Assembly: GCA_000163555.2 (NCBI GenBank)
Contig: ADAC02000001.1
Span: forward strand, 930,001-994,000
DNA length: 64,000 nt
Direction of reading: 5' to 3'
Origin: an alpha proteobacterium HIMB114
GTDB lineage: Bacteria; Pseudomonadota; Alphaproteobacteria; Pelagibacterales; Pelagibacteraceae
Within the stretch, counting starts at the first letter, position 1, and the number at the start of each line of letters is the position of its first letter. Under the pieces are notes generated by a model that did not search any database, was not told where the DNA came from, and saw nothing but the letters and a program-made list of their open reading frames with translations. A program made the position numbers and the translations under genes. This document shows positions 372-5,205 of this stretch, piece after piece.

Positions 372-1361
372 TTAAAGCTTCTTTGCTTCTTTAACTAGTT
401 TGTCGCCAACGCCACCTGTTCCACCAGTTCTCTTGATATAATCATCAATTACTGATGCAGATGCTTTTTTCAATGCGCTTAACTCTGAACTAGAAAGCTT
501 AACAACTTTCATACCATTTTCTTTGGCAATTTTATAAGCCCCTGCCTCAATGTTGGCCATATCATCTCTGACCGCCTTTTCAGCGATTTTAGATGCAGAC
601 TGTATTGCGCTCTTTTGCTTAGCGTTAAGTTTATTGTACCATTTTTGGTTCACTACAACCACAAACTCAATATCTCCGTGGTTTGTTACTGTAAGAGTAT
701 CCATTACTTGGTAAAGTTTTCTAGATTTAACTCCAGATACTCCAGTCATTCCAGCATCAACTGTACCTCTTTGATAAGCTAAGTACTGTTCAGAACCAGA
801 AATTAAAGCTGGCTTTCCTCCCAATGAAGAAACAAACGCTCCAAGAGTTTTACCAAAAACTCTGACCTTTTTATCTTTAAAGTCAGCTGGTGTTTTCATT
901 GGTCCGCCATTTGAAAGCATTACTGCACTACCATATGCTTGATAATAAAGTGGCATAGCTCCAGTTTTTGAAATTGCCGGATCTAAGATTGATCTAATTT
1001 TAGAACCTTGTGCTGTAGCTTTTCTAACTTTTTTTTCTGAGTCGAATAAGAATGGTAGATAAAATACATCTACTTCAGGATTTGTTCCAGCAAAACGAGT
1101 GATAGATGCAACGCCTGCTTCAATTGCTCCTGATCCTACAGCTTGTGGCACTTCTTTATCTTTATAAAGTTGAGCTGAGTCATAAATTTCAACTTTAATG
1201 TCAGACCTTTTTTCAACTTCTTTTTTGAACACAAGTAGATTTTGACCTAAATGTGCTTTTAGTGGAAGTTGAAGAGTTATTCTCATTTTAGTCTCAGCAA
1301 AAGATGCTGTTGCAAATGAAGCTAAAATGATGGTTATAAATATTTTTTTTAATATTTTCAT
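372..1361 (-). CDS. dctP: TRAP transporter periplasmic substrate-binding protein (DctP)
   Basis: The protein has about 329 residues. It begins with a signal peptide (basic MKILKK start, hydrophobic core, likely cleavage after Ala-Ser-Phe-Ala near residue 22). The mature part follows the DctP pattern, with the AQLYKDKEVPQAV region after the first lobe and a central conserved stretch around the KVRVFG motif that normally carries the carboxylate-binding arginine. The start at 1361 is chosen because GGGAG stands just upstream and the signal peptide begins there; a longer reading frame would add 18 residues with no such features. It delivers a small organic acid or related solute to the DctQM permease. 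The ligand is unknown. It is first in an operon with dctQ. Confidence 0.9.
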   Translation of the reverse strand: MKILKKIFITIILASFATASFAETKMRITLQLPLKAHLGQNLLVFKKEVEKRSDIKVEIYDSAQLYKDKEVPQAVGSGAIEAGVASITRFAGTNPEVDVFYLPFLFDSEKKVRKATAQGSKIRSILDPAISKTGAMPLYYQAYGSAVMLSNGGPMKTPADFKDKKVRVFGKTLGAFVSSLGGKPALISGSEQYLAYQRGTVDAGMTGVSGVKSRKLYQVMDTLTVTNHGDIEFVVVVNQKWYNKLNAKQKSAIQSASKIAEKAVRDDMANIEAGAYKIAKENGMKVVKLSSSELSALKKASASVIDDYIKRTGGTGGVGDKLVKEAKKL

Positions 1362-1529: not shown

Positions 1530-2426
1530 ATGAATTGGATAGTTGTTACAGTCATTGCTGCTTTTGTACAAAACCTCAGATTTACTTTACAAAAAAATAT
1601 TAACAAAAAAGTCTCTACCTTTGCTTCATCTTATGTAAGGTTTGCATTTGCATGTCCTTTTGCAATAGCTTTGTTTTTTATTTATTTTCAAGATACTACA
1701 ATTATTGCTCAAGCATTATCGAACGACAAATTCATTATCTATTTTATATCGGCATCAATATCACAAATAATTTTTACATTTATTATGCTGTACTTATTTC
1801 AATTCTCAAATTTTATAATTGGAACATCATTGAGTAAGACAGAAGTAATACAAATCGTAGCTTTAGAACTTGTATTATTTGGTGATACTTTAAGTTTTTT
1901 AGCAACAACTGGTGTAATAATTTCAACAATAGGAATTATTATTTTTTCAGTTAAAAATTTAAATCTTTTCATTAAAAATTTATTTTCAAAAACAACAATT
2001 ATTGGAATAATTACAGGTTTTTTTTTGGGTTTAAGTGTTGTGTTGTATCGTGGGGCAACATTAAGTCTTACAGAATTTGATTCAAAATTTGAAAAAGCAT
2101 TATGTACTTTGTTTTTTGGAGTTACTTTTCAAACAATGCTCATGACGATTTATATTTGTCTATTTGAAAGAGGAGAATTTAAAAAACTTTATGAACATAG
2201 ATATCAATGTCTAACAGCAGGGTTTTGTAGCTTCGTGGGAACTTTATCGTGGTTTTATGCATTTTCATTAATACAATCTTCTTTTGTAAGAGCATTGGGC
2301 CAAATCGAATTATTATTTAGCTATTTCTCTTCAACATTATTTTTTAAGGAAAAGGTTAAATTAATCGAAATAATCGGAATCTTAATTTTCGTTACGGGAG
2401 TTACCATTATGCTAGTTTTTAAATAA
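1530..2426 (+). CDS. EamA/DMT-superfamily permease
   Basis: The 298-residue protein is almost entirely hydrophobic and has about ten predicted membrane helices in two repeated halves, the EamA (drug/metabolite transporter) architecture. The N terminus starts directly in the first helix. Members export amino acids, metabolites or toxic compounds across the inner membrane; the substrate cannot be read from sequence. Its last 15 bases overlap the end of the convergent LysR-like gene. A second DMT permease occurs at 30648-31532 but is not next to it. No clear Shine-Dalgarno sequence precedes the ATG. Confidence 0.8.
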   Translation: MNWIVVTVIAAFVQNLRFTLQKNINKKVSTFASSYVRFAFACPFAIALFFIYFQDTTIIAQALSNDKFIIYFISASISQIIFTFIMLYLFQFSNFIIGTSLSKTEVIQIVALELVLFGDTLSFLATTGVIISTIGIIIFSVKNLNLFIKNLFSKTTIIGIITGFFLGLSVVLYRGATLSLTEFDSKFEKALCTLFFGVTFQTMLMTIYICLFERGEFKKLYEHRYQCLTAGFCSFVGTLSWFYAFSLIQSSFVRALGQIELLFSYFSSTLFFKEKVKLIEIIGILIFVTGVTIMLVFK

Positions 2427-2657
2427 ACTTAAATTAGTATCAAATTCATTTACAACTTTTAAAAGAGCATTTCCTTTTTCAGTTAGTTGAATTCCATTTT
2501 TCATATGTCGAATAAATAATTTGAAACCTAGGTCTTTTTCTAAGCTCATTATATCTCGACTAAAACTAGATTGAGATTTTTTAAGAACTTTAGAAGCATA
2601 ATTAAAACTTTTAAATGTTGAGATTTTTTTAAATGTTTCTAACTTTTTCCAATTCAT
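2412..2657 (-). CDS. LysR-type helix-turn-helix domain protein without effector domain
   Basis: The 81-residue product aligns with the N-terminal DNA-binding domain of LysR-type regulators. It starts with the usual MNWKKLETFKKI helix, has the turn and recognition helix around FNYASKVLKKSQSSFSRD, and the wing region GFKLFIRH...LTEKGNALL. LysR proteins are normally about 300 residues, with a C-terminal ligand-binding domain that is absent here. The frame stops inside the linker helix, and the following DNA is the convergent DMT gene, so no remnant of the effector domain is left. It may be a functional minimal DNA-binding protein or a truncated gene. Its target may be the neighbouring DMT gene or amtB, but this is speculation. 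Confidence 0.65.
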   Translation of the reverse strand: MNWKKLETFKKISTFKSFNYASKVLKKSQSSFSRDIMSLEKDLGFKLFIRHMKNGIQLTEKGNALLKVVNEFDTNLSLFKN

Positions 2658-2725: not shown

Positions 2726-2755
2726 AAAAGGCCCAGATTTTAAGTCTGGGCCTTT
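2726..2755 (-). terminator. Rho-independent terminator of amtB
   Basis: A perfect 12-bp stem, AAAAGGCCCAGA with its complement, has a 6-base loop and lies about 25 bases after the amtB stop. The A/T ends of the stem give a U-run on either strand, so it could also work in the other direction. Confidence 0.85.
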
Positions 2756-2781
2756 TATTAGATAAATTAAACTAACTATGT

Positions 2782-4074
2782 TTAATCTCTTATTGAGTAT
2801 GCAATAACTCCGATTTCAGCTACGTCTGTACCTTTAGTTTCGGCTTCTTTACTTACTCTAATTCCAAATGTACTTGCCATTACCTTCCAGACCACAAATG
2901 ATACTACGAAGACAAAAGCTATAACACTAATCACTCCAAGGAACTGTGCCCCAAAGTTAGCGTCAGCATTTGATAAAGGAACTGCTAATGTTCCCCAAAT
3001 TCCAGCGAACATATGTACAGGAATTGCTCCAACTACATCATCAATCTTTAATTTGAATAATAGTTTAGTTCCTAACACAACGATTGCTCCACCAATTGCT
3101 CCAATAATAATTGCAGCACCAGGTGTTGGCGCTAATGGTTCAGCTGTAATTGCAACTAATCCACCTAAACAACCATTTAACATCATAATGACGTCTGTCT
3201 TACCAGTTAAAAATCTAGTGATTAAAGCATTAGCAATTACACCACCACAAGCAGCCAAGTTAGTGTTGATGAAAATTTTTGCAATTGCAGTTGCGTCATC
3301 AACAGTACCTAAAGCTAATTGTGATCCACCATTAAATCCAAACCAACCAAACCAAAGGATAAATACACCAATAGTTACTTGTGGAATTGATGAATTTGCA
3401 AATGGCGGCATAGGCTTTTCACCAGATCTAGCAAATCTTCCAAGTCTTGGACCTAGAACGATTGCACCAGCTAAAGCAGCAGCTCCACCTGCAGCGTGAA
3501 CAAGAGTTGAACCAGCGAAATCAGAAAAGCCAGCTTTTGCTAACCAGCCTCCACCCCACTGCCAACCCATTTCGATTGGGTAAATTACACCAGTTAAGAT
3601 TGCCGCAAAAATAAAAAACGGCCAAATTTTAATTCTTTCAGCTAAAGCTCCTGAAACGATTGATACGGTTGTTGCACAGAATACCATTTGGAAAAACCAA
3701 TCAGATCCATCTGAATAACCAGTATCTAATTTTGATGCATCGCTCCATGGGATGAATGAGCCAATGTATCCACCTTCGGGAATACCATATGCTAAATTAT
3801 ATCCTCCAAGCCAGAACATGATTCCAGCTATAGAGAATAAACCAATATTTTTTGCCGCAATAGTTGATACACTTTTAGATGTTACCATCCCTGATTCCAA
3901 CATTGCAAAACCTGGCGCCATAAACATTACTAGAAAACCACATATTAAGAATAATAATGTATTAAACACATATTGTGTTTCAGCCCCTACCTTACTTTCG
4001 GCAGAAAAACTGGGTTCTACTAGAAATATTAAAGCGAACAGTGCAAAAGATAAGTAGTGACTTATTTTTTTCAT
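2782..4074 (-). CDS. amtB: Ammonium transporter (Amt/MEP/Rh family)
   Basis: The 430-residue protein has an N-terminal signal-like helix followed by eleven membrane segments, as in AmtB. Family signatures are visible: the DGSDWFFQMVF region, the AERIK motif, the first pore histidine in STLVHAAGG and the second in IPVHMFAGIWGTLA. The protein conducts ammonium/ammonia across the inner membrane. A good Shine-Dalgarno sequence (AAGGAG) precedes the ATG. There is no neighbouring glnK/PII gene, which usually accompanies amtB. A 276-base gap with several hairpins lies upstream and could carry control elements. A terminator follows. Identification is secure. Confidence 0.96.
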   Translation of the reverse strand: MKKISHYLSFALFALIFLVEPSFSAESKVGAETQYVFNTLLFLICGFLVMFMAPGFAMLESGMVTSKSVSTIAAKNIGLFSIAGIMFWLGGYNLAYGIPEGGYIGSFIPWSDASKLDTGYSDGSDWFFQMVFCATTVSIVSGALAERIKIWPFFIFAAILTGVIYPIEMGWQWGGGWLAKAGFSDFAGSTLVHAAGGAAALAGAIVLGPRLGRFARSGEKPMPPFANSSIPQVTIGVFILWFGWFGFNGGSQLALGTVDDATAIAKIFINTNLAACGGVIANALITRFLTGKTDVIMMLNGCLGGLVAITAEPLAPTPGAAIIIGAIGGAIVVLGTKLLFKLKIDDVVGAIPVHMFAGIWGTLAVPLSNADANFGAQFLGVISVIAFVFVVSFVVWKVMASTFGIRVSKEAETKGTDVAEIGVIAYSIRD

Positions 4075-4350
4075 TTTATTCTCCTTAAATAAATTTTTGT
4101 TGTTATGCAGAATTTAGATAGTTAGCTGTTGTTAAAAAAGTGTTAATCTGGATAATCAGCGTTTCATAAATTAGATATCTAAAAACGGAATACTTGATCT
4201 GATGATATTGAATGTTTTGGTGTGCTTAAATTTAACTAACAGGGGACATGAAGTGAGCAAACTCAAGCACACACTTAAGTCCTATTCGTATTCGTTTCTT
4301 TTTTGAATCAAAAATGTTCTAATTCACCCAATACGAGTCTTTAGATTAAA
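4075..4350 (-). promoter_or_regulatory. Hairpin-rich region upstream of amtB; possible leader or small RNA
   Basis: This 276-base gap between the end of the aminotransferase gene and amtB holds several complementary segments. They are a 7-bp helix (4286-4292 with 4330-4336) enclosing a 5-bp helix (4304-4308 with 4322-4326), and an 8-bp helix (4220-4227 with 4265-4272) enclosing a 4-bp hairpin (4254-4257 with 4262-4265). GGAC at 4244-4247 is complementary to GTCC at 4279-4282, outside the last helix, which would form a pseudoknot. A 12-bp palindrome centred on GATATC lies near 4171-4182. It matches no riboswitch or RNA family I can name. Direction is uncertain; an amtB leader (minus strand) is the simplest reading. 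Confidence 0.4.
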
Positions 4351-5205
4351 TTAAATCGCTATTTTTTTAGCTTTTTCGATATATTTTCCACGCAACAATT
4401 TGGTGAATTTTCCTGGTTTTCCATCTCCAATTGTTGACTGATTGATTTTAATTACAGGTGTAACAAAAGTTGTAGCACTTGTTACAAACGCTTCATCTGC
4501 ACTTTGAGCTTCATTAATTGTAAAATTTTTAAAATTAACTTTGTAATTCAACTCTTCTGCACATTCGATAACCGCCTCTCTCGTAATTCCTCTTAATATC
4601 AAGTTATCAAACTGCCTTGTAATCACAGTGCCTTTTCTAATTATCCAAGCATTATTTGATGTTCCCTCAGTAATAAATCCATTTCTAACCATCCAAGCAT
4701 CATCAAAACCTTTTTCAACCGCAGAAGATTTTGCAAATGAAGGGTATAAAAGTTGAACTGTTTTGATATCACAACGACCCCACCGCATATCATCAGTCGT
4801 CATAACTTGAATTCCTTTTAAAGCTGCATCATTTTTTAATAAGTCTTTGACTTGAGTAAAAGCTGAAACTGTCAACTCTGTTTTTTTATCTGGAAAATCA
4901 AAACTTCTCTCAGCTACACCACGTGACACCTGAAGATAAACCACACCCTCTTTTAAATTATTTTTTTTTACTAATTCTCTGTGAAATAATTCAAGATCTT
5001 TATGATCTAATAATTTTGGATAATTTAACTCTGTCATTGATCGGTCAAGTCGTTTCATATGATTTTTAAAATCAATTAACTTACCGTCTAATACTGAAGT
5101 TACTTCATACAATGCATCACTAAATAGCAAAGCACGATCAAAAATTGAAACTTTTGCCTGCGCTTCATCAAGATACTCACCGTTTAAATAAACTGTTCTT
5201 CCCAT
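4351..5205 (-). CDS. Class IV PLP-dependent aminotransferase (D-amino-acid transaminase-like)
   Basis: The 284-residue protein has the fold-type IV pattern: VYLNGEYLDEAQAKVSIFDRALLFSDALYE at the N terminus is split here as VYLNGEYL and FDRALLFSDALYE. The PLP lysine lies in the SFAKSSAVEKG region, and EGTSNNAWII and ILRGITRE are the cofactor-binding segments. Length and N terminus fit D-alanine aminotransferase better than branched-chain aminotransferase, which is longer. It would interconvert D- or L-amino acids and 2-oxo acids. It starts two bases after the nadB stop, so the two are probably cotranscribed. Substrate is not certain; aminodeoxychorismate lyase is a less likely alternative. Confidence 0.8.
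   Translation of the reverse strand: MGRTVYLNGEYLDEAQAKVSIFDRALLFSDALYEVTSVLDGKLIDFKNHMKRLDRSMTELNYPKLLDHKDLELFHRELVKKNNLKEGVVYLQVSRGVAERSFDFPDKKTELTVSAFTQVKDLLKNDAALKGIQVMTTDDMRWGRCDIKTVQLLYPSFAKSSAVEKGFDDAWMVRNGFITEGTSNNAWIIRKGTVITRQFDNLILRGITREAVIECAEELNYKVNFKNFTINEAQSADEAFVTSATTFVTPVIKINQSTIGDGKPGKFTKLLRGKYIEKAKKIAI

Follow-up and report, generated by a model that had tools for sequence, protein, structure and literature searches.

A conserved hairpin beside dat in SAR11 bacteria is a candidate small RNA antisense to the ribosome-binding sites of solute-binding-protein genes

We describe a 54-nt hairpin, encoded between dat and amtB in a SAR11 genome, that is probably a small RNA lowering the expression of nutrient-uptake genes and not a regulatory switch of the ammonium transporter. 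More specifically, we consider it about two-thirds probable that this hairpin is the core of a trans-acting anti-Shine-Dalgarno sRNA, which would pair over the leaders of TRAP dctP mRNAs and repress uptake genes without Hfq. The window, i.e., the whole 64,000-nucleotide stretch of DNA analyzed, spans positions 930001-994000 of a closed 1.24-Mb genome (G000) of the SAR11 family Pelagibacteraceae, and comparison of the dat protein identifies Pelagibacteraceae MAGs, e.g., CC_bin40 and TMED146, as close relatives. SAR11 bacteria, which possess few transcription factors, rank with the most abundant cells of the ocean. Cells of this kind have been suggested to depend on non-coding RNAs, the documented regulatory RNAs named being riboswitches (PMC13198564). 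If our reading is true, the hairpin would be a concrete case of a trans-acting RNA whose targets can be named, namely, the solute-binding proteins that feed SAR11, and one that works without Hfq. The features of the window that bear on this reading are the following:

372-1361, minus strand: dctP gene (PF03480 match) with GGGGGAG before its ATG; duplex with the seed -13.1 kcal/mol, a weaker candidate target
2782-4074, minus strand: amtB, marine-type ammonium transporter (TIGR03644 match); a neighbor, absent beside the hairpin in three genomes
4219-4272, minus strand: hairpin, candidate small RNA core of 54 nt, with a 14-bp stem and a 25-nt loop (z -5.53)
4220-4233, minus strand: 3' arm of the stem (AAAUUUAAGCACAC), pairing with 4259-4272
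4228-4248, minus strand: antisense seed UGUCCCCUGUUAGUUAAAUUU (loop and beginning of the 3' arm), complementary to dctP mRNAs at the ribosome-binding site
4259-4272, minus strand: 5' arm of the stem (GUGUGCUUGAGUUU), pairing with 4220-4233; several of the G.U pairs are possible on the minus strand only
4289-4294, minus strand: CGAATA box, 17-22 nt upstream of the hairpin, a possible promoter part recognizable by eye in the majority of 16 aligned flanks
4351-5205, minus strand: dat, D-amino-acid transaminase (NF005209 match), the constant upstream neighbor

The gap between dat and amtB (4075-4350) is indeed 276 bases long, as given in an earlier note, which proposed that 117 bases of it (4220-4336) fold into nested hairpins with a possible H-type pseudoknot, implying the plus strand. 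The element that emerges is smaller and lies on the opposite strand. Read as plus-strand RNA, the 117 bases show no folding advantage over shuffles (z +0.13, with 107 of 200 shuffles equal or better), and as minus-strand RNA they reach z -2.67, the strongest part of the minus-strand fold being the single hairpin at 4219-4272. Taken alone, these 54 nt score z -5.53 on the minus strand, a value equaled by none of 200 shuffles, and z -0.64 when read as the plus strand. The paired segments themselves are present as originally written: the 8-bp pair GTGTGCTT (4220-4227) and AAGCACAC (4265-4272), the 7-bp pair TCGTATT (4286-4292) and AATACGA (4330-4336), and the putative pseudoknot segments GGAC (4244-4247) and GTCC (4279-4282). 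Their fates across genomes differ. The 8-bp helix forms the lower part of a longer helix, of 14 bp, that 17 genomes conserve. The outer 7-bp helix, and with it the nesting, does not hold up, being kept at those places in G000 and G006 only and replaced elsewhere by 0 to 8 bp at differing places; likewise, GGAC finds its pseudoknot partner in just 2 of the 17 genomes. We accordingly discarded an H-type pseudoknot riboswitch (SAM-II/SAM-V-like), for which there is also no Rfam match. The view that the element fits no known class was borne out: among 4227 Rfam families, which we take to include the AbcR family, none matched anywhere in the window at gathering scores, and a scan to E 10 over positions 3900-4700 returned four unrelated chance matches only, so that assignment to a known RNA family was dismissed.

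The hairpin is a shared trait of a limited part of the family. A DNA search of 61 genomes recovered a clear core in 14, namely, G000-G007 of the genus of the window (g1), 3 genomes of g8 and 3 of g12, and a covariance model (R1) extended this set to 17 of 397 Pelagibacteraceae genomes with E <= 2.6e-10; ten genomes with best R1 matches between E 0.0018 and 0.07 were counted as chance, as judged from the match sequences only. The carriers comprise all 8 genomes of the genus, together with members of two other genera. In an order-wide sample of 297 genomes, each of the 6 R1 matches fell in a carrier that had already been found. When the 17 sequences (13 distinct) were aligned to fit the structure, the 14-bp stem had 181 of its 182 cells paired on the minus strand vs 157 on the plus strand, the deficit arising because many of the minus-strand pairs are G.U; this contradicts the plus strand implied by the pseudoknot. 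An earlier independent MAFFT alignment had given 140 of 140 stem cells paired. The covariation score of the stem was equaled by none of 500 shuffles, and compensatory change, the suggested test of the fold, was indeed found, albeit at one pair only: pair 9-46 is G-U, U-A, U-G or A-U and is the sole pair changed on both sides. Conservation is concentrated in the seed. The core GUCCCCUGUUAG (4236-4247) is identical in 16 of the 17 genomes, and the seed UGUCCCCUGUUAGUUAAAUUU as a whole is nearly invariant, with a changed form in G001 (CCCCUACAAG); on its 5' side, the loop is variable in length and sequence. At the level of sequence, the hairpin, its conservation and its strand are thus established.

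Read as their plus-strand complement, the loop and 3' arm give TTAAATTTAACTAACAGGGGA, which was first met as a weak secondary match of the DNA search and is the ribosome-binding site of TRAP dctP genes. We searched the 16-mer TTTAACTAACAGGGGA, allowing at most one mismatch and leaving out the hairpin locus, in 34 genomes, half of them carriers. There were 14 copies in the 17 carriers and 1 in the 17 non-carriers, with approximately 0.6 expected by chance per group. Each of the 14 carrier sites precedes a DctP domain by 132-206 nt in the correct orientation (0.57 expected by chance), and the single non-carrier site is not at dctP. Within the genome of the window, 18 sites were found when up to three mismatches were allowed, the hairpin included; both one-mismatch sites are dctP starts, and one of the three-mismatch sites is the start of an amino-acid-binding protein gene. 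The looser pattern ACANGGGA-N2-12-ATG is frequent in both groups of genomes and does not tell carriers from non-carriers. Both the complementarity and the enrichment of matching sites at dctP starts are evident from the sequences themselves, and the C-rich loop is complementary to the ribosome-binding sites of several unlinked mRNAs, as expected of a trans-acting anti-Shine-Dalgarno sRNA.

Predicted duplex energies point in the same direction, with qualifications. Against the minus-strand seed, the dctP leaders of the genome reach -23.3, -22.1, -16.9 and -13.1 kcal/mol, compared with -15.6 kcal/mol for the best of 436 other gene starts and a mean of -5.95 kcal/mol over all 437 sampled starts, drawn from 19 stretches of 20 kb and the window. 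High in the unselected list stand a secreted protein resembling a TctC-type binding protein (-15.5; named by eye, without a Pfam match) and a second ammonium transporter (-12.8). Across genomes, dctP leaders average -18.1 in carriers (n=45) vs -13.5 in non-carriers (n=33), with p 3e-5, uncorrected for relatedness like the other carrier/non-carrier comparisons; these represent 45 of 58 dctP matches in carriers, those of G027 and G035 lying outside the 45, and 33 of 48 in non-carriers. The start was set at the 5'-most ATG of the open frame, and three starts that look wrong (L227, L241 and L273) were retained. For TAXI leaders, the corresponding means are -17.2 (n=14) vs -12.4 (n=12), with p 0.02, a difference that mostly reflects the GGGG part. 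Non-carrier dctP leaders also exceed the background and several of them keep TTAATTAAC...GGG; hence, the match is owed in part to the SAR11 solute-binding-protein leader as such. In part, this leader trait predates the RNA and represents a SAR11 habit of placing a G-rich Shine-Dalgarno sequence at solute-binding-protein genes.

Three further controls temper the energies. First, when the cost of opening the stem is charged in a cofold of the G000 targets, the net gain is clear for one (-12.5 kcal/mol, the best target), moderate for a second (-5.2, a TAT-type dctP) and nil for two (-0.6 and +1.7); among the sampled background genes, one attains -6.6. Second, mononucleotide-shuffled seeds attain -20.7 at some gene start and pass -16 at a mean of 1.2 of 437 genes. 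With the real seed, by contrast, no start among the 437 sampled passes -16, and the strong matches of that seed are dctP and other solute-binding-protein genes that are mostly outside the sample. By itself, this control is not favorable; chance yields low energies at single genes, but not their concentration on one gene family. Third, we looked for co-change of seed and target in G001 and found none: its dctP leaders are unchanged despite the altered seed, in a genome that is 76% complete and has three dctP matches only.

The G-rich ribosome-binding site is itself unevenly distributed. The genome of the window contains 35 distinct GGGG-N3-11-ATGAA sites, 10 of which were judged to be genuine gene starts, and 8 of these 10 belong to solute-binding proteins (a LivK-type protein, three DctP, two TctC, an SBP_bac_3 amino-acid-binding protein and a TAXI protein), the other 2 being ThiG and an oxidoreductase-like protein, both named by eye. 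Among the 437 sampled genes, GGGG occurs at that place in 6. This Shine-Dalgarno sequence, rare elsewhere, is common to the different transporter types (window 372-1361, L319, L324, L325, L327, L339, L342 and L344). A bolder proposition, which we regard as speculative and on balance doubt, is that these SAR11 lineages tag solute-binding-protein genes by this unusual GGGG(A) site and that one Hfq-free hairpin RNA reads the tag, setting the levels of TRAP (DctP, TAXI), TctC, LivK and AapJ proteins jointly; a single small RNA would then govern a whole nutrient-uptake program in cells that have very few transcription factors.

The mechanism that we propose would proceed as follows. The RNA would fold as one long hairpin, the loop of which would display UGUCCCCUGUUAG and then GUUAAAUUU running into the 3' arm. 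This segment is predicted to pair with the leaders of periplasmic solute-binding-protein mRNAs, chiefly TRAP dctP mRNAs with UUAAAUUUAACUAACAGGGGA. On meeting the leader, the loop and 3' arm would unfold and mask its Shine-Dalgarno sequence GGGG(A/G), so that ribosomes could not start. A search for Hfq (PF17209) gave no match in any of the 14 SAR11 genomes tested, with a control match in 5 of 14 named genomes; because Hfq is absent from the genomes tested, the long helix would have to work without it, and a helix of up to approximately 20 bp may make Hfq unnecessary. We infer transcription, the positions of the 5' and 3' ends and repression over activation, the last because it is the expected outcome of pairing over a Shine-Dalgarno sequence. 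The seat of the hairpin beside amtB and dat hints that nitrogen or amino-acid status may be the controlling signal.

How such an RNA might be made is a separate matter. The sigma-70 score in the 60 bases upstream is 8.85 on the minus strand, against 9.05 for shuffles, and 8.94 on the plus strand, against 9.23; neither rises above its shuffles. A terminator-like site was looked for at the hairpin and none was found, and the hairpin was rejected as an intrinsic terminator of dat or of the EamA gene, the U-run being missing on both sides of the stem. The candidate RNA may start near the CGAATA box (4289-4294) or derive from the 3' end of dat. The second of these routes, whereby the hairpin would lie in the dat 3' untranslated region and be processed out of the dat transcript or end it, seems to us unlikely, although it is the likeliest of the alternatives: dat is the constant neighbor, transcribed in the same direction, and the promoter signal does not stand out, but the hairpin has no U-run, and in g12 a separate inverted repeat, GAATCG..CGATTC, lies between dat and the hairpin and may end dat. 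This alternative differs from our main reading only in the making of the RNA, and the action on targets may be equal. In the g12 flanks (G018, G028, G036, G067 and G074), the repeat is tight, directly follows dat and is succeeded by CCCC, not T; in the window, it is degenerate.

The earlier note had left open whether the element is an ammonium- or nitrogen-related leader or a free small RNA, and gene order favors the latter. The hairpin adjoins dat in all nine carriers with ORFs listed. The order dat-hairpin-amtB is found in three g1 genomes (that of the window and two relatives, at L039 and L041) and three g12 genomes, whereas in three g8 genomes (G014, G027 and G035) the same hairpin is kept between dat and a convergent EamA permease gene, with amtB absent. 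By this comparison, the hairpin is independent of amtB. A cis-acting amtB leader, be it a riboswitch or a protein-binding element sensing ammonium or nitrogen, is consequently improbable, even though most carriers have the hairpin upstream of amtB in the same direction: the position upstream of amtB is not constant, with the synteny broken in three genomes, approximately 144 nt and a separate conserved palindrome intervene before the amtB start, the most constant part of the hairpin is antisense to other genes, and Rfam offers no riboswitch match. We therefore rejected the leader and return to the small RNA as the preferred reading.

Two other alternatives concern the nature of the active molecule. 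The plus strand resembles a dctP leader (TTAAATTTAACTAACAGGGGA) and could in principle act as a decoy that titrates whatever binds such leaders (ribosome, protein or another RNA); this is very improbable, given that 157 of 182 stem cells can pair on the plus strand, vs 181 on the minus strand, and that shuffled sequences fold as well as the plus strand does. Hardly tenable is a DNA element, i.e., a protein-binding site common to the locus and the dctP leaders, for which speak the palindromic TTAAATTTAA and the occurrence of TTAATTAAC in dctP leaders of genomes without the hairpin, but against which stand the conservation of the asymmetric part CTAACAGGGGA, which sits on the Shine-Dalgarno sequence, and stem changes that respect the G.U pairing of RNA.

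In behavior, the candidate sRNA is closest to AbcR1/2 and NfeR1 of rhizobia, the latter presumably the alpha-r14 sRNA family, but its sequence, architecture and need for Hfq differ, and we do not file it as a member of either. In the Rhizobiales, AbcR1 and AbcR2 use anti-Shine-Dalgarno motifs to bind solute-binding-protein mRNAs at the ribosome-binding site, and they reduce uptake (PMC8844928, PMC3712013). The candidate resembles them as described there in being alphaproteobacterial, trans-acting (here predicted), anti-Shine-Dalgarno and directed at solute-binding-protein genes. AbcR RNAs are, according to the same reports, built of three hairpins with the seeds CUCCUCCC and UUCCCCUC and a Rho-independent terminator and are Hfq-dependent (PMC8844928, PMC3712013), whereas the candidate has one hairpin and one UCCCCUG motif, a seed GUCCCCUGUUAG extended to approximately 20 nt, neither a U-run after the stem nor a terminator that we could find, and a genome lacking the Hfq gene. 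Membership in alpha-r15/AbcR was rejected on the lack of a covariance-model match, of the three-hairpin architecture and of Hfq dependence. NfeR1 is described as a 115-nt RNA with three identical anti-Shine-Dalgarno motifs and with periplasmic substrate-binding proteins as validated targets (PMC8844928), and it is tied to nitrogen control by NtrBC (PMC10746234). The anti-Shine-Dalgarno motif and the substrate-binding-protein targets (predicted here) are common to both; unlike NfeR1, the candidate has one motif instead of three, and the Rfam scan detected no sequence relation. Closer to home, Meyer et al. (2009) reported conserved intergenic RNA candidates in 'Ca. Pelagibacter ubique', one of which was judged likely to be a free RNA (PMC2704228). 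The present hairpin is a further conserved intergenic RNA candidate in SAR11, and of the motifs named in the available text of that paper, none is located at dat/amtB or corresponds by description to this hairpin (PMC2704228). The available text of open-licence literature on SAR11/Pelagibacter Hfq, sRNA and small RNAs (including PMC13198564 and PMC5069720) likewise describes no such RNA.

Finally, the surroundings of amtB have features of their own. A palindrome, TTAGATATCTAA, lies at window positions 4171-4182, between the hairpin and amtB. Its core TAGATATCT was found 3' of the hairpin in 13 of the 16 flanks read, namely, in every g1 and g12 flank and in no g8 flank, and the palindrome therefore goes with amtB, not with the hairpin. 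Since TTTAGATATCTA occurs once in the genome, at amtB, the palindrome was rejected as the mark of a regulon; it is probably an operator specific to amtB. Further downstream, an 81-aa ORF between the EamA gene and amtB (window 2412-2657) resembles, by eye, a lone LysR-type DNA-binding domain, and a strong terminator-like hairpin with 12 pairs and a T-rich tail lies downstream of amtB at window positions 2726-2756.
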